The notes under the pieces: model-generated
What the model was told of the DNA's origin: nothing
Database searches by the model: none
Seen by the model: the letters and a program-made list of their open reading frames with translations, nothing else
Assembly: GCA_000722615.1 (NCBI GenBank)
Contig: JOKI01000011.1
Span: 120,301-184,300, forward strand
Reading direction: 5' to 3'
Origin: Pseudorhizobium pelagicum
GTDB taxonomy: Bacteria; Pseudomonadota; Alphaproteobacteria; Rhizobiales; Rhizobiaceae
Length of the DNA: 64,000 bases
Made by a program: the position numbers and the translations under genes
Shown here: positions 605 to 11,374 of the stretch, piece by piece
Layout of the letters: each line of letters begins with the position of its first letter
How positions within the stretch are numbered: the stretch's first letter is position 1

Positions 605-3600
605 ATGGCAAAGAACACCACGAGTGAAACGGTCGACGAAACGGCCTTCCAGGCTTTGGAAGACGCTCTGAAGATCGATTTCAATGACGAGCAAGACGCC
701 CGTCGCAGGTCCGCGCCCCACGCCTCGGAGACCAGAGTGTCTGACACACCCAAGCAGCGTTCCTCAACCGCACGGCAAGACAATCCTGCCCAGCCGCCCC
801 GCTCCCAGGCATCGGGCGAGCCCGTGGCGCGGGCACCCGCCTTCGAGCCGGCAAACGACGGCAGCCGGCGCAATACGCTGAACATGCTGAAATCGCTGGA
901 AGGCGGCTCGATGCGTGCATCGCTGCGCAACGCCGCCATCGTTTCGGCGTTCTGGGCAATCGGCGGCCTCGGCCTTGCCCAGCTGCTCTACGGCAGCGCG
1001 CTGTGGCAGATGGGATCCGTCGCCGGTCTGATTTCCGCTCCCGGGATCGTTGCGATCGTCGTGGGCATCATCGTCCCGATCCTGCTGTTCTTCGCCTTCG
1101 CGATCATGATGGCTCGTGCGCAGGACCTGCGCAATGCCGCGCGCTCCATGGCAGAAGTGGCGCTTCGCCTCTCCGAACCGGAGACCGTTGCCGCCGAGCG
1201 CATCATGACCGTCGGCCAGGCCGTTCGCCGCGAAGTCTCGGCCATGAACGAAGGCATCGAACGGACGATCGCGCGGGCGACCGAGCTCGAGACGCTGGTT
1301 CATTCCGAGGTCAACGCGCTGGAGCGCAGCTATACGGACAACGAACTGCGGGTTCGCGGTCTCGTCCACGAACTCGGCTCGGAGCGCGACGCGATCGTCA
1401 ACCATGCCGAACGCATCCGGTCGTCGATCGTCGGCGCCCACGAACAGCTCAAGGAAGAGCTTTCGCTGGCCACCGAAGAGATCTCGATTCGCCTGGCGAC
1501 GTCCGGAGAAGCCTTCGCGTCGATGATCGACACGCGCGCGGCCGCCCTCACCGACAAGACCAATGCCGCCGGCGAGGCCCTCGGCTCGCTCCTGTCGGCC
1601 AAGGCCCAGGATCTTGTCGACACCCTCAGTTCGTCCGGCTTTGCGCTGGCGAGCGAGTTCGACGAGCGCCTCCAGACCCTGACGTCCACGCTTGCCGAAC
1701 GCGGCGAGGCTCTCCTCGGAGAATTCGAGACGCGTGCCTCGACGCTCGACGCCAATACCGAACGGTTGAATGCAGCGCTCGCGGACCGTACCCGGCAGCT
1801 GAACGAGACACTGGTGGCCCGCACGCGGGAAATCACCGAAGGTCTGGCCGAAGGCGAACGCAGCATCACCGGTTCGCTCGATGCCGTGCTGGCGTCGCTG
1901 AACCAGTCGCTGGACGACAAGGGCACCTCGTTCCGCCGCAATCTCCAGTCTGCCGCAGACGATGCGGTCATGGACCTCGACCTGCGCACCGGCCTCTTCG
2001 AGGAGCGGCTGCAGGCGACCGTCGGCCAGCTCAGCGCCACGTTCGACGAGGGTCTGACGCAGTTTGCCACGGCCTTCGACCAGCGCGCGGGCAATCTCGA
2101 CAGCAAGCTCATGGACAGCCTTGCGCGCATCAACGAAACGGTCGCCGGCGGCTCGGAGTCCATCGAAGGCATTCTCAGCACCAGCATCGCGCGGATCGGC
2201 GCGGCACTGACCGACCAGTCGCTGTCGCTGGCCACCACGCTCGGCACGGGTCAGGAAGTGCTGGATTCGATGCTGGAGAGCCGCACGCGCGAGCTCGGCG
2301 ACGCTCTTGCCGCCCGCACCAGCGAAATCACCAGCGCCTTCGGCAACACCCACGAGAACATCGATGCGGTCCTGGCCGGCCGCAGCAGCGTGCTGATCGG
2401 CGCGCTGACGGAGAGCCAGAAGCAGTTCGACCAGACGCTGGGCGAGCGCTCGGGTGCCGTCATCAGCGCGCTGGAAGGTGGGCAGCAGCGCTTCGTCGAG
2501 GCTCTCGACCAGCGGACCGCCGCCATCGAAGGCGCCGTCTCTGACGCGCCGGAACGGCTTGCCCAGCTGCTCGACGAGCGGGCATCCACCATTGCCCGCC
2601 ACCTTGAGGATGGCGAGCAGCGCATCGCCGACAGCTTCGACCAACGCGTCGCCACCCTGGGCCAGACGCTGTCGTCGAACGGCGACAGGATCGGCGAACT
2701 CCTCGACGACAAGACCATGGACATCAGCACGGCCCTTGCGCTCGGCGAAGATCGCATCGCCGGCATCCTGACCGGTCTTGCCGAGACACCGGAGCGCATC
2801 ACCACCGTGCTCGACGAACGCGCGGCCGTCTTTGCCCGTCATATCGAGGATGGCGAACAGCGGATCGGCGAAGACCTCGACCGTCGCGTCGCCGCCATTG
2901 CCCAGACCCTGTCGTCCAACGGCGACCGTCTCGGCGAACTCTTCGACGACAAGACGATGGACATCAGCACCACCTTCGCGCTCGGCGAAGACCGGATCTC
3001 GAGCATCCTCGGCACGCTTGCCGAGACGCCGGAACGTGTCGCGACCGTGCTCGACGAACGGGCCGCCGTGATTGCGGAGACGCTCTCGACGAACGGTGAA
3101 CGCCTCGGCGAGCTTCTCGACGACAAGACGATGGAGATCAGCACCGCATTTGCCCTTGGCGAAGACCGCATCGCCGGCATCCTCGGCAATCTTGCCGACA
3201 CGCCGGAGCGTGTTTCGAGCGTCCTCGACGAACGCGCCGCAGCCATCGCGCGTCACATCGAGGAAGGCGAACAACGCCTCGGTGACAGCGTCGATCGGCG
3301 GGTTGCGGGTCTCACCGAGGCACTCTCTGCCAATGGTGACCGTCTCGGCGAGCTCCTCGACGACAAGACGATGGAGATCAGCACCGCTTTTGCGCTCGGG
3401 GAAGACCGGATCGCCGGCATTCTCAGCAATCTTGCCGATACGCCAGAGCGCCTCTCCAGCGTGCTCGACGAGCGCGCCAGCGCCATCGCGCAGCATATCG
3501 AGCAGGGCGAAGCCCGCCTCGGCAAGACCCTAGACCAGCGGGTTGCCGGATTTGCCGAGATCGTCGCCGCCAATGGCGACAAGATCGGCGAAATGCTCGA

Positions 3601-6600
3601 CGACAAGACGATGGAACTCAGCACTGCCTTTGCGCTTGGCGAACACCGCATCTCCGGAATCCTGAGCAGCGTCGCCGATACGCCGGAGCGCCTGTCTGCG
3701 GTTCTCGACGAAAGAGCAGCGGCAATCCTTCGGCACATCGAGGATGGCGAGCAGCGCCTCGGCGAAAGCCTCGACCAGCGCGTTGCCGGCTTCGCGCAGA
3801 CCGTATCGTCGAACGGCGAGCGGATTGGCGAGCTGCTTGACGACAAGGCCCTCGAACTCAGCACCGCCTTTGCCCTTGGCGAAGACCGGCTGGCCGGCAT
3901 GCTCGACGAGCGGACCGACAAGCTCGTCGCCAGCGCTTCCGACGCAGGCAGCCGGATCGAGGCATCGGTCGGCCAGGTGTCGGAACGGATCGAAACGGTG
4001 CTCGGCGAAGGCGCCAGCCGGCTGGAGAGCAATCTTGCGGCAGGAACGGACCGGCTCGGGACGACGCTCGGCAGCGGACACGAGCGTGTCGCCGAGACTC
4101 TGTCGACGATGCATGATCAATTTGCCGCCACGGTCACCGCTGCGAACCAGCAGTTGGAAGAGACCCTCGGCTCCAACTACGATCGCCTGCGCTCCACGCT
4201 CGAGAAGCGTGGCGACATGATCTCGGTCGCCCTCACCCAGGCCCACGACCAGATCGTCGACCTGATGTCCGACCAGGTGACGACCATCGGCACGACGATC
4301 GCCACCAGCGCCGGCCTGCTGGAAATGTCGCTGGAGCTGCAGCAGGAAGAGTTCCGGGCCGCCATCGACGGCGCCGGCACAGACCTGGAGCAGCGTCTCA
4401 GCTCCACCGCCGGCACCATCGCCGCCAAACTGAACGACGCCGCGCAGGAAATTACCCGCTCTGCCGACGAGTTTTCCGGCCGCATCGAACATACGGTCGG
4501 CAGCGTTGCCGCCGCCCTCAACGACAGCGGCAGCAAGATCGAAACCACGTTCGGCGGTCTCGAAGGCCGGATCCGCGACGAACTGGCGGGCGTCACGGAG
4601 CTGGTCGATGGTGCCGGACGCAATCTCGGCGATACGCTCGCCCAGCGCACCGCCGATCTCGAGCGCGTCAGCACCGATGCCCACGACCGGATCGCCGGCA
4701 CGATGGACAGCGGCACAGCACGTCTCGACGAACGCCTTTCGACCATGGATCGCGCCCTGACGATCGGCCTCGACAATGTCTCGCGGACCATCGAGGGCAA
4801 GGCTGCAGGCCTTGCCGCGACGCTGCGGGAAGCCGTGACCGCTGCCGCAGAGGGCATGGACAGCGAAGCCATGCGCTCCGCAGAGATGCTGACACGCGCC
4901 GGCGCCGAGTTCACGGACGAGCTCTCGAACCGCAATGCGGAGTTCACCAAATCGATCGAGGAGCGCTCGAACGAGATCGTCACACGGATTTCCGAAACTC
5001 AGAGCCGCCTTGCAGGCCAGGCCGCCACGGTGGCGCAAGCCTTCTCCGAGGCCGGCAATTCCATCGTCAACAAGGTGGCCGAGGCCGATTCTCTCGTCAA
5101 ACGACAGGTGAACGCGATCTCGCAGGCGCTGGGCGAAGCAGAGCAGGCTCTGGAAGCCCGCGGCGGCGCATTGCGCGGCACGCTGTCCAACACCGCCGCC
5201 GAACTGCAGGCGGCCATGGACAACGTCGACAAGGCGCTTGCCGCCCGCGGCGATGCGATCCGCTCGGCACTCGACAGCCGCGCTCGCGACCTCAATTCGA
5301 TGCTGGCCAGCCGCACCACGGAACTGTCGCGCATCATCGAGGAACAGGCCAAGCCGGTCGTCGAGGAATATGCGGTCGCCAGCCAGTCCGCCGCCGACCA
5401 GATTGCCGTCGCCACCCAGGAAGGCACCGATCGCCTCGCTGCCGCCGTCAACGAGAGCGCCGGCCGGATCCGCAACGAGAACAATGCGCTCGTCGATGCG
5501 ATCGCATCGCGGACCAACGAGGCGCTGTCGGCCCTCACGCAGCGGGCGGAGAATACCGCCGGTGCGATTCTCGCGGTCGAACGCGGCCTCACCGGCAACG
5601 TCAACGCCCTGATCGACCGGCTCGCGGAAAGCAATTCCGGGATCACCGACATCGTCGAGCGGGCGACCCGCAACATCACATCCGCAGCCGACCAGGCATC
5701 GGCCCGTCTTGCCGGCGTCGATGAAAAGCTCGATGCCACGGCCAACCGCTTCCAGGAATCGGCAAGCCATGCAGCAGACATGGTGTCCGGCTCGAGCCGG
5801 CTCCTGGAAAACAACATCGATCGGCTGGCCAGCATCTCCGGACAGACGCTCAATCAGGTCGGCGGCATCGTCGGGCGCTTTGATGAGCACTCCAAGGTGC
5901 TTGCCCAGGCGTCGGAACTGCTGGGTGCAGCCCAGTCGAACCTCGCCAACACGCTGGGCGAGCGCCAGAACGCGCTCCGCAGCCTGTCGATCGGACTGGT
6001 CAAGCAGTCGGAAGAAATCGAAGCGACCATGCGCAACCTGACGACGCTGGTGGAGGGCTCGTTCGAGCGCGCCGGCGAGCGGTCTTCGCAGGTTGCCTCC
6101 CATCTGCGCGAAAGCCTGCACGGCGCCTTTGCAGACATCGGCCGCACGCTCGGCGAAACGCAGCAGCGGGCCGACATCACGGCACAGGCGATGCGCGAGG
6201 CACTGACGGGCGCCGGCGAAGAAGCCAATCGTGCCATCGACCAGACCTTGTCGAATGCCGAGAACCGCGCCAAGGGTCTGTCCGAGCGCATCCGCGGCAG
6301 TGTCGAAAGCTCGTTCGGCGATGTCGAGCGGATGCTAGGCGAAGCCGCCAACCGGTCCGACACCGCTGCCTCCCACCTGCGCGAGACATTGCGCCAGTCG
6401 GTGGAAGAGGCCGTCGGACGCTTCGCGGGCGCAACGGACGAAATCCGTCGCTCGGCCAACGAGATCCGCGAAGAGCTCGACAGCACCCGCTCCGAGCTGA
6501 AGCGCGGCGCGTTCGACCTTCCGGAAGAAGCCAAGGAAAGCGCGGCTGCGATGCGGCGCGCGGTCTCCGAGCAGATCAAGGCGCTCCAGGACCTCTCGCA

Positions 6601-7309
6601 GCTCGTCGGTCGCTCGACGCAGCAGCTCGAGGTCTCGCAGCCTGCTCCGGCGCGTGCCCCAGCACCGGCGCCCGCGCCAGCACCACGGCCGCAGCCGGTC
6701 GCAGCCCTGCCGCAGCAGCCAGTAGCGGCTCCGCGCAGCGACCTGCTGTCATCGGGCCTGCGCGGTTCGATCAATGTCGATCGTCCGGCACAACCGTTGC
6801 AGCCGCGTCCTTCCGAGCCCTCGACTGGGCGACGGGATGAGGGTGGCTGGATCAGCGACCTCCTGCGCGGTGCGTCCGAAGGGGCAGAGGCACCGGCCCG
6901 TCAGGCACCGCGCCAGCCCGAACAGCCGGCTCCGCGCGGCAATGGCGACAACCGCAATCCGCGGCACATGGTGGAATCGCTGAACTCGCTGTCGGTGGAT
7001 ATCGCGCGCGCCATCGATCATGACGCCTCGGTGGACCTCTGGCGCCGCTATCAGCGCGGCGAGCGGGATGTCTTCACCCGCCGCCTCTACACGCTGAAGG
7101 GTCAGCAGACCTTCGACGAGATCAAGCGCAAGTACGAACGCGAGCCGGAGTTCCGCACCGCGGTGGATCGCTACATCGCCGACTTCGAGAAGCTGCTCAG
7201 CGACGTGGCCCGCACCGACCGCGACAAGTCGGTCACCCAGAGCTACCTGACCTCCGATACCGGCAAGGTCTATACCATGCTGGCGCATGCGGCCGGGCGC
7301 TTCAACTGA
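605..7309 (+). CDS. Giant membrane-anchored coiled-coil protein, Growth Pole Ring (GPR)-like
   Basis: This encodes 2,234 residues. Residues 1-100 are polar and low in complexity. Two hydrophobic segments follow at about 110-130 and 145-170. Then comes some 1,800 residues of almost unbroken helical, coiled-coil-type sequence with many short ERxxxL, LDERA and GDRIGELL motifs. It ends in a Pro/Ala-rich linker (about residues 2010-2120) and a compact C-terminal domain of about 115 residues. Annotation pipelines often name such proteins kinesin-like or apolipoprotein-like. Size, order of parts and taxonomic context match GPR of Agrobacterium tumefaciens, an apolipoprotein-like protein that forms a ring at the growing pole and is needed for polar growth in Rhizobiales. 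Residues of about 648-1105 form 80-residue tandem repeats. A perfect bidirectional terminator follows. Long open frames on the other strand are codon-bias shadows. Confidence 0.85.
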   Translation: MAKNTTSETVDETAFQALEDALKIDFNDEQDARRRSAPHASETRVSDTPKQRSSTARQDNPAQPPRSQASGEPVARAPAFEPANDGSRRNTLNMLKSLEGGSMRASLRNAAIVSAFWAIGGLGLAQLLYGSALWQMGSVAGLISAPGIVAIVVGIIVPILLFFAFAIMMARAQDLRNAARSMAEVALRLSEPETVAAERIMTVGQAVRREVSAMNEGIERTIARATELETLVHSEVNALERSYTDNELRVRGLVHELGSERDAIVNHAERIRSSIVGAHEQLKEELSLATEEISIRLATSGEAFASMIDTRAAALTDKTNAAGEALGSLLSAKAQDLVDTLSSSGFALASEFDERLQTLTSTLAERGEALLGEFETRASTLDANTERLNAALADRTRQLNETLVARTREITEGLAEGERSITGSLDAVLASLNQSLDDKGTSFRRNLQSAADDAVMDLDLRTGLFEERLQATVGQLSATFDEGLTQFATAFDQRAGNLDSKLMDSLARINETVAGGSESIEGILSTSIARIGAALTDQSLSLATTLGTGQEVLDSMLESRTRELGDALAARTSEITSAFGNTHENIDAVLAGRSSVLIGALTESQKQFDQTLGERSGAVISALEGGQQRFVEALDQRTAAIEGAVSDAPERLAQLLDERASTIARHLEDGEQRIADSFDQRVATLGQTLSSNGDRIGELLDDKTMDISTALALGEDRIAGILTGLAETPERITTVLDERAAVFARHIEDGEQRIGEDLDRRVAAIAQTLSSNGDRLGELFDDKTMDISTTFALGEDRISSILGTLAETPERVATVLDERAAVIAETLSTNGERLGELLDDKTMEISTAFALGEDRIAGILGNLADTPERVSSVLDERAAAIARHIEEGEQRLGDSVDRRVAGLTEALSANGDRLGELLDDKTMEISTAFALGEDRIAGILSNLADTPERLSSVLDERASAIAQHIEQGEARLGKTLDQRVAGFAEIVAANGDKIGEMLDDKTMELSTAFALGEHRISGILSSVADTPERLSAVLDERAAAILRHIEDGEQRLGESLDQRVAGFAQTVSSNGERIGELLDDKALELSTAFALGEDRLAGMLDERTDKLVASASDAGSRIEASVGQVSERIETVLGEGASRLESNLAAGTDRLGTTLGSGHERVAETLSTMHDQFAATVTAANQQLEETLGSNYDRLRSTLEKRGDMISVALTQAHDQIVDLMSDQVTTIGTTIATSAGLLEMSLELQQEEFRAAIDGAGTDLEQRLSSTAGTIAAKLNDAAQEITRSADEFSGRIEHTVGSVAAALNDSGSKIETTFGGLEGRIRDELAGVTELVDGAGRNLGDTLAQRTADLERVSTDAHDRIAGTMDSGTARLDERLSTMDRALTIGLDNVSRTIEGKAAGLAATLREAVTAAAEGMDSEAMRSAEMLTRAGAEFTDELSNRNAEFTKSIEERSNEIVTRISETQSRLAGQAATVAQAFSEAGNSIVNKVAEADSLVKRQVNAISQALGEAEQALEARGGALRGTLSNTAAELQAAMDNVDKALAARGDAIRSALDSRARDLNSMLASRTTELSRIIEEQAKPVVEEYAVASQSAADQIAVATQEGTDRLAAAVNESAGRIRNENNALVDAIASRTNEALSALTQRAENTAGAILAVERGLTGNVNALIDRLAESNSGITDIVERATRNITSAADQASARLAGVDEKLDATANRFQESASHAADMVSGSSRLLENNIDRLASISGQTLNQVGGIVGRFDEHSKVLAQASELLGAAQSNLANTLGERQNALRSLSIGLVKQSEEIEATMRNLTTLVEGSFERAGERSSQVASHLRESLHGAFADIGRTLGETQQRADITAQAMREALTGAGEEANRAIDQTLSNAENRAKGLSERIRGSVESSFGDVERMLGEAANRSDTAASHLRETLRQSVEEAVGRFAGATDEIRRSANEIREELDSTRSELKRGAFDLPEEAKESAAAMRRAVSEQIKALQDLSQLVGRSTQQLEVSQPAPARAPAPAPAPAPRPQPVAALPQQPVAAPRSDLLSSGLRGSINVDRPAQPLQPRPSEPSTGRRDEGGWISDLLRGASEGAEAPARQAPRQPEQPAPRGNGDNRNPRHMVESLNSLSVDIARAIDHDASVDLWRRYQRGERDVFTRRLYTLKGQQTFDEIKRKYEREPEFRTAVDRYIADFEKLLSDVARTDRDKSVTQSYLTSDTGKVYTMLAHAAGRFN
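2546..3919 (+). repeat. Six 240-bp (80-residue) in-frame tandem repeats in the GPR-like gene
   Basis: Units begin at 2546, 2786, 3026, 3200, 3440 and 3680, each opening with a (T/A)PER codon set. The shared core reads LDERAA, then GEQRLG, then SNGDRIGELLDDKTM, then STAFALGEDRIAGIL. Five units are 240 bp long, the last diverging at its end. The third (3026-3199) is 174 bp because it lacks 66 bp, or 22 residues, covering the GEQR...DRRVA part. The reading frame is kept throughout. Neighbouring sequence on both sides has weaker copies of the same pattern. Confidence 0.93.
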
Positions 7310-7408: not shown

Positions 7409-8023
7409 CTACATGGACTGCAGCGACCAGTCGACGATCTCGGCACCGACGGCGGCAAAGGCGTTGTTGAGCGCCGCGACGAAATCCCGGTTCTCCGTCC
7501 CGGAGACCGGCACGGTCGCCCGGAAGGCGCGCTGGGCGCGGACGGTGCCGTTTCGGTCGTTGAGGATCTTCACGAAGATCTCGACATTGGCGACATCGGC
7601 ACCGCTGGTGTCGACTTCGAACGCACGAATTTCGGCCACCACCTGATAGTCGATCGCCAGGCCCTGCCCCGGCTGGCCGACGCCGCCAAGACGACCGCTG
7701 TTTTCGAACGCCGCCACGAGCTTGGCCTGAACCATGCGCGGCAGGGTATCGCCCCACTGCGATTCCGCCAGATACTGGATTTCCGACGGCGAGACCCGGA
7801 CCACGACCTGGTCGCTCGCAATCGACTTCAGTGCCGTCGGCTCCGGCACCAGGATCTGCCTTCCGCGCGCGGAAGGCCCCGTGCTGGAGGGGGTGATGGA
7901 AAGGTCGAAAGTGTCATTGTTGGCCTTCGTGCCGCAGCCCGCCGCCAGGGCGGCGATCATCGGCAGCACCATCAGCGCGCCGGGGCGAAGCGGACCCGTG
8001 TTGAAGAACGTCAAACCTGTCAT
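7409..8023 (-). CDS. Mla-type ABC transport auxiliary lipoprotein
   Basis: 204 residues. The N-terminus carries a hydrophobic signal ending in a lipobox, LAAGC, with the lipidated cysteine near residue 30. The mature part contains the SEIQYLAESQWGDTLPRMVQ stretch seen in the ABC-type transport auxiliary lipoprotein family (relatives of PqiC). Last gene of the mlaE-mlaF-mlaD operon, 13 bp after mlaD. Known family members sit in the outer membrane and work with MCE proteins in lipid trafficking; the specific partner here is inferred from the operon. It ends just before the shared terminator. Confidence 0.85.
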   Translation of the reverse strand: MTGLTFFNTGPLRPGALMVLPMIAALAAGCGTKANNDTFDLSITPSSTGPSARGRQILVPEPTALKSIASDQVVVRVSPSEIQYLAESQWGDTLPRMVQAKLVAAFENSGRLGGVGQPGQGLAIDYQVVAEIRAFEVDTSGADVANVEIFVKILNDRNGTVRAQRAFRATVPVSGTENRDFVAALNNAFAAVGAEIVDWSLQSM

Positions 8024-8036
8024 GAGTACTCAGTCC

Positions 8037-9407
8037 CTATCGCCGCGTTCTGCCGTCATACTGTTTTACCGTCTCGCCACCAAAGATCAGGCGCTGCGGG
8101 TTCTCGTCGAAATTGGTGATCGTGCTGTCGAGGCTGCGAACCGTGCGCCGGGTGTCTTCCACCAGCGTCTGGATGTCGCGCAGGCCGGAGGCCGAGAAGC
8201 GCTGCAGGCTGTCTGCAATCGGCCCCACGCGGCCATTGATGTTGTCGGCAACCGTGCGGAAGGACTGCAGCGTTCTGCTGGCTTCCGCAAACAGCGACTC
8301 GGAATCGTCGCCCGACAGCATGGTGTCGACCTTGGCGAGAATGCCGTCGACGCGGTTCGACGCGTTGTTGAGCTTCTGCGCCAGCTCCGTGAAGTCGTTG
8401 ATCGCCCGATTGATGTCGTCGCGCTGGTTGGCCACCCCGTCGACGACCTCACGTGCCGATGATAGCGCACTGCGTGCGTCCTCGCTGGCTGCCGTCAGGT
8501 TGTTGACCGCGGTTCCGACATTCTGCGGGTTGATCGCCGCCATCAGTGTATCGGCCCGTTGGACCACAGACCGCGCATCCGTCGTCACCTGCTGGAAGCT
8601 GGAAGAAGCCGACCGGATGTTCTGGGCGATCTCGTCGAGATTGTCGGAGGCATTGGCGACATTGAGGCTGACGCGTTCGGCATTGGTGACCACCGCGTTG
8701 ATCTTTTCTGCATCGACCGCACGCACCAGTTCCTCGGCTGCGGCAAGCGTGGAGTCCACGCGCTGTGAAACGCCGTTGAAGGTCACCGACAGCGCCGACA
8801 TGCTCTCCAGGAAGTCGTCGATCGCACCCGCATTGCTGCTGAGCGATGCCGAGAAGACCTCGGCGTTACGGATCGTCTGCGTCAGCGGACCGCGTGCATC
8901 CGCGACAAAGCCCTGCAGATCGCCGATCGCGTCATTGGCGCGCTCCAGAATCTTGTCGGCGGTTGCCAAAAGGTTGGTGACGCTCGACTGATCGGCGATC
9001 AGCACCGCCGGACGGCCGGTATCTATTGCCTGCCGAAGGATGCTCTCTTCGCCCTTGTTGCCGCCGGAGAGCTCTATATAGGCAGCCCCCGTCAGGCCCT
9101 GCACTTCCAGCACCGCCTTGGTCGAGGGAAAGACGGGCGCGTCGGCGCGCACTTCGGTGAAGGCGATCGAATATTGCGGATCGTCCGGGTCGATGGAGAG
9201 GTTGCGCACCGAGCCCACCGGAATGCCGTTGAAGCGCACCGGCGAGCCCACCGACAGACCGTTTGCGGACCCGGGGATGCGGATCGCCAGCTCGGCCACC
9301 GGACCACCCCGCCCCGACTGGGCCATCCAGTAGACGAAACCGAATGCGGCGGCGATCACCAGCAAGGTGAAGAACCCGACGATTGCGTAATTTGCTTTGG
9401 TTTCCAT
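8037..9407 (-). CDS. mlaD: MlaD/MCE-family lipid transport protein
   Basis: 456 residues from the ATG that gives METKANYAIVGFFTLLVI, the usual start of this family. A GTG 12 bases upstream (9419) would overlap mlaF by 8 bases and is an alternative. One N-terminal membrane helix (about 9-30) is followed by the MCE domain, with the typical GLSVGSPVRFNGIPVG segment near residues 50-65. A long helical, repeat-like C-terminal region of about 300 residues follows, far longer than E. coli MlaD (183 residues) and more like MCE proteins that form extended assemblies. It should bind phospholipid in the periplasm and dock on the MlaE-MlaF complex encoded upstream. Confidence 0.88.
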   Translation of the reverse strand: METKANYAIVGFFTLLVIAAAFGFVYWMAQSGRGGPVAELAIRIPGSANGLSVGSPVRFNGIPVGSVRNLSIDPDDPQYSIAFTEVRADAPVFPSTKAVLEVQGLTGAAYIELSGGNKGEESILRQAIDTGRPAVLIADQSSVTNLLATADKILERANDAIGDLQGFVADARGPLTQTIRNAEVFSASLSSNAGAIDDFLESMSALSVTFNGVSQRVDSTLAAAEELVRAVDAEKINAVVTNAERVSLNVANASDNLDEIAQNIRSASSSFQQVTTDARSVVQRADTLMAAINPQNVGTAVNNLTAASEDARSALSSAREVVDGVANQRDDINRAINDFTELAQKLNNASNRVDGILAKVDTMLSGDDSESLFAEASRTLQSFRTVADNINGRVGPIADSLQRFSASGLRDIQTLVEDTRRTVRSLDSTITNFDENPQRLIFGGETVKQYDGRTRR

Positions 9408-9411
9408 GGCC

Positions 9412-10239
9412 TCAGTCACTCTGTGCAGTTGGCGTCGCGTCCTGTTCCGTGGTCACCACGGAACGGGCCCGCTTGCCGCGGAAGTAGGATTGAACCCACG
9501 GATCGTCGAACGCGAACATATCCTCCAGCGTGCCTTCCACCAATACCCGCTTCTGTCCGAGCACGGCAATACGGTCGCAAACTGAAAAAAGGCTGTCGAG
9601 GTCGTGGGTTACCATGTAGACCGTCAGCCCGAGGGTGTCTCGCAGCCGGGCGATCAGCATGTCGAATTCGGCCGCGCCGATCGGGTCGAGACCCGAGGTC
9701 GGCTCGTCGAGGAAGACGAGGTCCGGATCCAGCGCCAGCGCCCTTGCGAGCGCCGCACGCTTGATCATGCCCCCGGACAGTTCCGACGGATATTTGTCGG
9801 CCGCTTCCGGTGCGAGCCCGACCATCTCGATCTTCAGAAACGCAAGCTCGTCCATCAGCGACTGCGGCAGGTCGAGATATTCCCGCATGGGCAGTTGGAT
9901 GTTCTCCTTGACCGTCAGCGAGGAAAACAGCGCGCCATGCTGGAAGAGCACCCCGAGCCGCGTGTCGAGAGCAACTCTCTGCTCGTCGGTCGCCTCGTCG
10001 TAGTCCGTCCCAAGGATCTTGATGCTTCCGCCGCGCCGCGGCAGAAGACGCAGCACCGTGCGCATCAGCACCGATTTACCCGTGCCCGAAGCGCCGACGA
10101 AACCCAGGATCTCGCCGCGATAGATATCGAGGTTGAGGTTGTCGAGCACGATGGTGGAGCCGAAGCCCACCGTCAGGTCGTGCACCGACAGGACAACCTG
10201 CCTTTCTTTCTGGGCCGCATCTTTTTGTGTTCCCGCCAC
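9412..10239 (-). CDS. mlaF: MlaF-type ABC transporter ATP-binding protein
   Basis: 275 residues, a complete ABC ATPase. Walker A reads GASGTGKS (about residues 49-56), the signature motif is LSGGM, and Walker B with its glutamate is DLVFLDEPTSGLDP. A short charged N-terminal extension and an Ala/Thr-rich tail flank the domain. It lies 10 bp after mlaE and abuts mlaD, so it energises the phospholipid transporter encoded here. No oddities seen. Confidence 0.93.
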   Translation of the reverse strand: MAGTQKDAAQKERQVVLSVHDLTVGFGSTIVLDNLNLDIYRGEILGFVGASGTGKSVLMRTVLRLLPRRGGSIKILGTDYDEATDEQRVALDTRLGVLFQHGALFSSLTVKENIQLPMREYLDLPQSLMDELAFLKIEMVGLAPEAADKYPSELSGGMIKRAALARALALDPDLVFLDEPTSGLDPIGAAEFDMLIARLRDTLGLTVYMVTHDLDSLFSVCDRIAVLGQKRVLVEGTLEDMFAFDDPWVQSYFRGKRARSVVTTEQDATPTAQSD

Positions 10240-10249
10240 GCGGTCGCTC

Positions 10250-11374
10250 CTAGAAATCGATCGCTGAGTAGAAGATGGCGAAGAAGGAATCCATGACGAT
10301 CACGGCGAAGATCGACTTCACCACCGAGGCCGTCACGTGCTTGCCGAGCGATTCCGCACTGCCGCCGACCTTCATGCCCTCGACCGCGGCAACGATGCCG
10401 ATGGCGAGCGCCATGAACGGCGCCTTGATCATGCCGGATGCCACCGAGGTATGGTCGACCGCTTGATGAAGGCGCGCCAGGAAAGTTTCGAAGGTAATGC
10501 CGGAATAGGTCCAGGTGACGACGGCGGCACCGTAAAGCGCTGCAAAGTTTGCGATAATCGTCAGGAGTGGCAGAATGATGGTCAATGCCACCAGCCTCGG
10601 AAAGATCAGCACGCCCACCGGGTTCAGCCCGATCACCGTCAGCGCGTCGATCTCCTCGCGCATCTTCATCGAGCCGATCTCGGCGGTGATCGCGCTGCCG
10701 GAGCGGCCGGCGATCATGATCGCCGTCAGAAGCACGCCGACCTCGCGCAGCTGCAGGATGCCGACGAGGTCGACGACGAAGATCTCGGCGCCGAAATAGC
10801 GAAGCTGGAAGGCGCCCTGCTGGGCGATGATCGCCCCGATCAGGAAGGACATCAACGCGATGATCGGGACGGCCCGGACGCCCATGTGGTCGATCTGGTT
10901 GACCACGGAGGCCGGCGAGATGCCGCCGCCCTTGCCGAACTTCATCTGCGCGCCCCGGACGGCCGAGCCCAGGATGTGCATGGCAGCGACCAGATCGCCG
11001 GCGACATCTGTGACGATCCGCCCGACCGGCGTGAATGTCCGCTCGAACAGCGAGGGCCGTGGGCCGGTTGGAGCGGCGGGTGCGGGTGCCCGTTCCGGAA
11101 GAACGGCGATCAGCTCGTCGATATTGCTGGTTGCCCCGACCAGCGCCACATCGCGTCCCTGCGTCTGTTTTGCGGTGATCAGGCGCCGGATCAGCCAGGC
11201 GCCGGCGGTGTCCATGGCATCGACGCCGGAGAGATCGATCTCAATCCGGCCGCGCCCGGTGCTCGTCTCCAGCCCCTCCAGCGTCGGCAGGACGCTTGTG
11301 ATGCTGTGGTTGCGCCAATCGCCACGCGCGACGAATCGCTCGCCATCGCCCCCGGAGGTCTGCTCGGCAGCCAT
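10250..11374 (-). CDS. mlaE: MlaE-family permease with fused N-terminal STAS domain
   Basis: 374 residues. Residues of about 1-105 look like a STAS (anti-sigma antagonist) domain: IEIDLSGVDAMDTAGAWLI is the usual beta-strand/helix signature. The rest is a standard MlaE permease with about five membrane helices and the conserved VGILQLREVGVLLTAIMIAG and GRSGSAITAEIGSMK stretches. In E. coli the STAS partner MlaB is a separate protein; here it is covalently joined, as in many alphaproteobacteria. First gene of the mlaEFD-lipoprotein operon. The start is taken as the ATG at 11374; an in-frame TTG at 11401, preceded by GAAAGA, is possible. The same frame stays open far upstream, but that is not coding. 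Confidence 0.9.
   Translation of the reverse strand: MAAEQTSGGDGERFVARGDWRNHSITSVLPTLEGLETSTGRGRIEIDLSGVDAMDTAGAWLIRRLITAKQTQGRDVALVGATSNIDELIAVLPERAPAPAAPTGPRPSLFERTFTPVGRIVTDVAGDLVAAMHILGSAVRGAQMKFGKGGGISPASVVNQIDHMGVRAVPIIALMSFLIGAIIAQQGAFQLRYFGAEIFVVDLVGILQLREVGVLLTAIMIAGRSGSAITAEIGSMKMREEIDALTVIGLNPVGVLIFPRLVALTIILPLLTIIANFAALYGAAVVTWTYSGITFETFLARLHQAVDHTSVASGMIKAPFMALAIGIVAAVEGMKVGGSAESLGKHVTASVVKSIFAVIVMDSFFAIFYSAIDF

Follow-up and report, generated by a model that had tools for sequence, protein, structure and literature searches.

A probable GPR/RgsE polar-growth scaffold of a Rhizobiaceae bacterium, with a predicted rod of 11-residue repeats

The long gene near the start of the window (the whole 64-kb stretch of DNA that was analysed) probably encodes this Rhizobiaceae bacterium's version of the polar-growth scaffold GPR/RgsE, with a bundle-ring mechanism and a rod that acts as spacer; we put the probability of this reading at roughly 85%. 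Judged from its sequence, the gene is an ordinary, correctly named orthologue of a known kind, called GPR in Agrobacterium and RgsE in Sinorhizobium. Searches and predictions together establish its orthology and its putative parts: two N-terminal membrane helices, a rod of 11-residue repeats, a Pro/Ala linker predicted to be disordered, and a conserved, all-helical C-terminal domain (CTD). The features are as follows.

605..7309, + strand: gpr/rgsE orthologue, 2,234 aa (ORF, Pfam and orthology searches)
632..691, + strand: N-terminal motif VDETAFQALEDALKIDFNDE, residues 10-29, preceding membrane helix 1 (pattern search)
932..994, + strand: predicted membrane helix 1, residues 110-130 (hydropathy)
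1007..1129, + strand: predicted membrane helix 2, within residues 135-175 (hydropathy)
1130..6574, + strand: helical rod, residues ~176-1990, 11-residue amphipathic repeats, PF01442 apolipoprotein-like (Pfam, periodicity)
2549..3922, + strand: tandem array within the rod, residues 649-1106, units of 80-80-58-80-80-80 with Pro at each start (repeats)
6635..6934, + strand: Pro/Ala-rich linker, residues ~2011-2110 (composition)
6950..7306, + strand: CTD, residues 2116-2234, all-helical (conservation, AlphaFold2)

Much of the architecture proposed by the first-pass annotation holds. The 2,234-residue protein is encoded by a single intact ORF at 605-7309 (+), with an ATG start and no internal stop, which is present in one copy in its own 5.13-Mb genome. 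The + frame is the one with homologues; the long ORFs on the opposite strand are shadows cast by the high G+C content (66%) of the gene. The two membrane helices placed near residues 110-170 correspond to hydrophobic segments at 110-130 and within 135-175, and the bulk of the protein would lie on the cytoplasmic side. The Pro/Ala linker is likewise evident in the composition of residues 2001-2115 (19% P, 16% A). The 64-kb window contains no tRNA and no Rfam match.

The proposed orthology with Agrobacterium tumefaciens GPR is borne out by reciprocal matches in three genomes, with a single copy of the gene. A MAG labelled A. tumefaciens (L096), A. pusense (L102), and Sinorhizobium meliloti (L122) served as proxies for the type sequence, Atu1348. 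The window protein matched one gene in each, with identities of 55.8%, 55.1%, and 50.9%, respectively, in global alignments, and the GPR of L096, searched against the window's whole genome, gave four matches, all in G000:C11:120866-127606. The published identity between RgsE of S. meliloti and GPR of A. tumefaciens is 42%, and distant homologues of RgsE are reported in Emcibacterales and Rhodospirillales (PMC7327166); in a third genus, the RgsE homologue is reported to localise to the new pole (PMC9938171). The closest named relative is that of Pseudorhizobium tarimense, with 82.9% identity across 2,164 aligned residues; the named set comprised the 80 best of at least 558 related stretches, assigned to Rhizobiaceae by names and titles.

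The protein had also been described as about 120 residues longer than the published 2,115. The arithmetic is right (119), but the difference is not a real one, as 97 Rhizobiales relatives span 1,366-2,956 codons (100 loci minus L045, L070, and L088, each of <1,000 codons). Extra length was therefore rejected as a special feature, since it falls inside the spread of these relatives. In L045, the gene occupies two frames that overlap (950 and 987 codons), the result of a genuine split or of an error in sequencing. A 1.5-Mb genome of the same family (L047) retains a copy of ~1,525 aa with an 11/3 rod.

The same annotation saw about 1,800 residues of coiled-coil-like helix. The long helix is upheld, but the heptad coiled coil is not, and an 11-residue amphipathic repeat takes its place. 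Hydrophobic periodicity in the window rod peaks at 98.8 degrees per residue (power of 14.3), close to the 98.2 degrees of an 11/3 repeat. Power is 13.2 at 11/3 versus 1.2 at 7/2 (102.9 degrees), with a mean shuffle maximum of ~1.4, and a test of the rod for a heptad (left-handed) coiled coil gave no 7/2 signal (1.20, below the shuffle maximum of 1.39). The peak lies at 98.2-99.4 degrees in all 20 Rhizobiales relatives tested and at 99.6-101.2 degrees in all 19 from outside the order; power at the heptad frequency in Rhizobiales is 1.2-2.0 against shuffle maxima of 1.4-1.7, so that a few relatives slightly exceed noise. Self-identity of the window rod is elevated at lags of 80, 22, 44, 11, and 33, and the tandem array has six units, of which the five 80-residue units are mutually 59-72% identical. 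The hydrophobic stripe occupies ~3 of every 11 positions, with an acidic flank on one side and a basic flank on the other, and residues 201-1990 contain only 8 prolines in 1,790 residues (0.4%), with none at all between residues 1028 and 1583. An AlphaFold2 model of residues 620-1040 was poor (mean pLDDT of 56) and usable no further than "mostly helix." Established coiled-coil theory leads one to expect a right-handed twist of 11/3 repeats.

Just two coiled coils, of 21 residues each, are reported as predicted in GPR (PMC8262873), perhaps because heptad-based predictors would miss an 11/3 helix. The main text of that paper contains neither "11-residue" nor "heptad," and no mention of "hendecad" was found in the literature searched. 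In one relative (L033), the rod peaks at 99.4 degrees and identity is highest at lag 29 (29/8 = 99.3 degrees); a single 36-residue rod gap, another whole-turn unit, separates it from L034, of the same family and with the same peak.

Automatic labels would make the protein kinesin-, SMC-, or Zorya-like (ZorA), a reading to which we give almost no credence. An S. meliloti record carries the label "kinesin," and NCBIfam ZorA_1 matches the window protein with an E value of 7.7e-17. However, that match scores 60.8 bits against an NCBIfam cut-off of 190 and is confined to residues 1221-1435 of the repeat rod, and motor, ATPase, and ExbB/TolQ domains are absent among the families with an E value of up to 0.01. 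These labels were rejected, ZorA_1 being below its cut-off and in the repeat rod only.

A published interpretation treats GPR as an apolipoprotein with a possible role in lipid handling (PMC8262873): the 11-residue helices would bind or lie on lipid, and the ring would supply or sequester membrane lipid at the growing pole. PF01442 matches the window protein in 14 stretches (E = 4.7e-59; 199.7 bits against a Pfam cut-off of 90), and the only two PDB matches of the rod are to apolipoprotein A-IV (E = 1.6e-5 and 5.2e-5). Analysed with the same script, human apolipoprotein A-IV has an equal peak of 98.2 degrees and an equal share of ILVMF residues (24%). Thus, neither periodicity nor stripe width distinguishes a bundle of proteins from a helix that binds lipid, and stripe width was dropped as proof against lipid binding. 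Composition, however, differs. Proline makes up 0.4% of the rod versus 3.5% of the apolipoprotein A-IV stretch, a ninefold difference measured against one yardstick of 228 residues. Basic residues are one-sided in the rod (24%, 22%, and 15% at 262-327 degrees versus 1%, 5%, and 6% at 33-98 degrees), whereas the same 228-residue stretch is basic on both sides (50% at 65 degrees and 56% at 262 degrees).

The genes next door bear on the same idea. Downstream of gpr/rgsE and convergent with it lies an Mla/MCE operon (7409-11374):

7409..8023, - strand: ABC-type transport auxiliary lipoprotein, PF03886 (Pfam)
8037..9419, - strand: MlaD/MCE protein with a long helical tail, PF02470 (Pfam)
9412..10239, - strand: MlaF-type ATPase, PF00005 (Pfam)
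10250..11374, - strand: STAS plus MlaE permease, PF02405 (Pfam)

In 44 of 76 named Rhizobiaceae loci, homologues of both MlaD and MlaF are encoded downstream, on the strand opposite gpr/rgsE; the 76 are those with at least 9 kb of sequence in the named set of 80 described above. The convergent pair recurs in 10 of 20 non-Rhizobiales loci, from six families. The latter were hand-picked from the stronger matches, and one of the 10 loci lacking the pair extends only 572 bases downstream. This lipid-transport operon beside the gene would suit a lipid handler, but it is absent nearby in the other 32 of the 76 Rhizobiaceae loci, including four of the Agrobacterium loci and the S. meliloti loci, and the opposite strands mean that gpr/rgsE and the Mla genes are not cotranscribed. 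The arrangement fits the published lipid idea, but it may be inherited gene order. Overall, we consider lipid handling a rather unlikely role. On the other side, a small Hpt-domain protein (L001 674-1054, - strand, reaching into window positions 1 to ~158) is divergent from gpr/rgsE, and a homologue of its N-terminal part is found upstream in 74 of the 76 named loci.

Across near relatives, the two ends are conserved, and the length of the rod seems to vary mainly by steps of 11 residues. Gaps were analysed in 34 disjoint pairs with at least 70% identity, out of 37 pairs formed. The rods of these pairs hold 52 gaps, 51 of at least 5 residues and one shorter, and 27 of the 51 are multiples of 11, where 1 in 11 is expected (P = 2e-15). 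Of 120 gaps in the disordered ends of these proteins, 96 span fewer than 5 residues, and multiples of 11 account for 3 of the 24 larger ones. The commonest rod gap outside the 11 series is 29 (seven gaps), with 58, 87, and 145 also present; 15 of the 24 non-11 gaps deviate from a whole number of turns by no more than 40 degrees, taking 100 degrees per residue (28% expected), and nine deviate by more.

Because an aligner may favour in-register gaps in repeats, the pairs with a single gap in the rod were examined, since in these the difference in length alone sets the gap size. The ten such pairs have gaps of 11, 11, 29, 29, 33, 36, 44, 44, 66, and 242 residues, stable across three gap penalties, and seven are multiples of 11 (P = 5e-6). 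No rod gap is present in 14 pairs, and several are present in 10, where some sizes match no unit (e.g., 5, 39, 45, 64, 69, 79, and 106). In a larger, overlapping set, which is not independent, 269 of 412 rod gaps are multiples of 11. Repeat recombination and selection for helical phase can both explain such multiples, and tandem duplication of repeat units by recombination could produce them without phase selection.

The conserved C-terminal end (~115 residues) is, as had been suggested, something separate from the rod. AlphaFold2 predicts seven helices for residues 2116-2234 (mean pLDDT of 81.1 and pTM of 0.75, from a shallow alignment of 56 close sequences), and the domain is conserved far beyond Rhizobiales. 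Within the order, 190 of 199 genomes contain a match to its last 114 residues (170 of 174 when only good-quality genomes are counted), and 13 diverse Rhizobiales sequences share 15 invariant columns, four of which (LAHA) are close to the extreme C terminus. None of these 13 members has a Pfam match above cut-off (best E of 0.011, in two of the 13), the CTD profile gave no match among PDB sequences (best E of 0.014), and a Foldseek search of the model against the PDB returned 138 matches with E up to 10, the best at 0.27 and none at 0.001.

A profile of the 13 members finds the CTD in 145 of 385 alphaproteobacterial genomes and in 87 of 398 genomes of the phylum, 86 of them in the class; the sole match outside it is weak, in a 100-codon frame with an E value of 8e-6 against a small ORF set. 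The bearers range from ~330 to ~2,900 residues with the same ends, and therefore the ends are constant and the spacer is variable. A profile of 61 CTDs, again searched against a small ORF set, matches five proteins of 830-936 codons (L182-L186, f115; E = 3e-8 to 1e-12), which have two N-terminal hydrophobic segments and a diverged CTD and are TipN-sized, and three of 330-354 codons (L187-L189, f74), also with two hydrophobic segments near the N terminus. The latter three resemble the family reduced to its bare ends, with almost no rod between the hydrophobic segments and the CTD. An assignment of the f64 genomes to Caulobacter was rejected, the CTD of one being 64% identical to a Sphingomonas record.

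Published truncations of A. tumefaciens GPR bear on the role of this end. Loss of the last 10 residues is reported to impair function and keep paired foci, loss of the 221 C-terminal residues abolishes complementation, and foci still form without the last 332 residues (PMC8262873). As reported, these results indicate that the C terminus is required for function and unnecessary for ring building.

At the other end, a loose pattern for the N-terminal motif is found in 96 of 97 Rhizobiales proteins and a strict one in 90 of 97, versus 0 of 19 non-Rhizobiales proteins for either. The loose pattern was set after the misses of a first pattern (70 of 97), and it occurs 15 times across all rods combined. 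The long 11/3 rod and this motif are the sole family features that track Rhizobiales.

The distribution of the CTD also weighs on the proposal that the protein evolved as a substitute upon loss of the MreB elongation system in Rhizobiales. In its own genome and four other genomes of the order in the class sample, PF06723 has weak matches alone (best E of 1.3e-14 to 2.5e-16), which we take to be other actin-fold proteins. Furthermore, polar growth is reported to require GPR (PMC8262873). However, of the 140 genomes from outside the order that bear the CTD, 133 match MreB strongly (E < 1e-50, a threshold of our choosing, with counts made by reading two tables), and some of the seven that do not are incomplete. 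This co-occurrence argues that the family is older than, and independent of, the loss of MreB, and it weakens the substitute proposal to the point that we hold it to be very unlikely.

Under the preferred reading, that of a polar-growth scaffold, the two membrane helices would anchor the protein in the inner membrane, with the remainder in the cytoplasm. The rods may associate laterally through their narrow stripe of hydrophobic residues to form a bundle, and that bundle would build the ring known from Agrobacterium. The flexible linker would hold out the CTD, a candidate partner-binding end that may recruit the envelope-growth machinery to the new pole. S. meliloti RgsE is described as a polar growth factor that binds TolQ, RgsA, and RgsS (PMC7327166). 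The rod would serve as a spacer. Its length would drift mostly by complete helical units (11, or 29), which, as we propose, keeps the stripe aligned, and selection would hold the two ends.

A wider reading is possible. TipN, the new-pole landmark of Caulobacter crescentus, has 882 aa and is described as analogous to GPR (PMC13170164), and GPR is reported to have "similarity" to it (PMC8546619). The 830-936-codon CTD proteins may be TipN, a guess from size alone. GPR, RgsE, and TipN-type proteins might then form one alphaproteobacterial polar-landmark family, in which a membrane hairpin and a CTD of unrecognised fold are constant and the rod runs from ~100 to >2,000 residues; in Rhizobiales, the rod would have been remodelled into an 11/3 helix of quantised length that acts as a phase-locked spacer, and the N-terminal motif would have been gained. 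We hold this view tentatively and rate it at slightly less than an even chance. If it is true, ring size or the reach of the CTD would follow rod length, a relationship that the Rhizobiales series of 1,366-2,956 codons allows to be asked for ring size, and the class-wide CTD would probably be the functional end of polar landmarks in bacteria that range from Sphingomonas-like to Rhizobium-like. The 11-residue rod, its quantised length, and a class-wide CTD lacking a Pfam or PDB match are mildly new, and the N-terminal motif is also a modest addition.

Among known systems, A. tumefaciens GPR (Atu1348, 2,115 aa) shares with the window protein the two N-terminal membrane helices, the PF01442-type rod, the Pro-rich region, and the C terminus. 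The window protein differs in being 119 residues longer and in its repeat make-up (the 80-residue array), and an Mla operon lies downstream of its gene, whereas none is found within 10 kb in the Agrobacterium loci L096, L099, L102, and L116. RgsE of S. meliloti (SMc00190, 2,089 aa in print) has the same make-up as the window protein. Apolipoprotein A-IV (PF01442) shares the 11/22-residue amphipathic periodicity of the rod, but the window protein has far fewer prolines, a one-sided basic flank, a predicted membrane anchor, and a CTD. TipN is similar in size to the alphaproteobacterial proteins of 830-936 codons that match the CTD profile and have two predicted N-terminal membrane helices; rods from outside Rhizobiales peak at 99.6-101.2 degrees, whereas those of Rhizobiales peak at 98.2-99.4 degrees.
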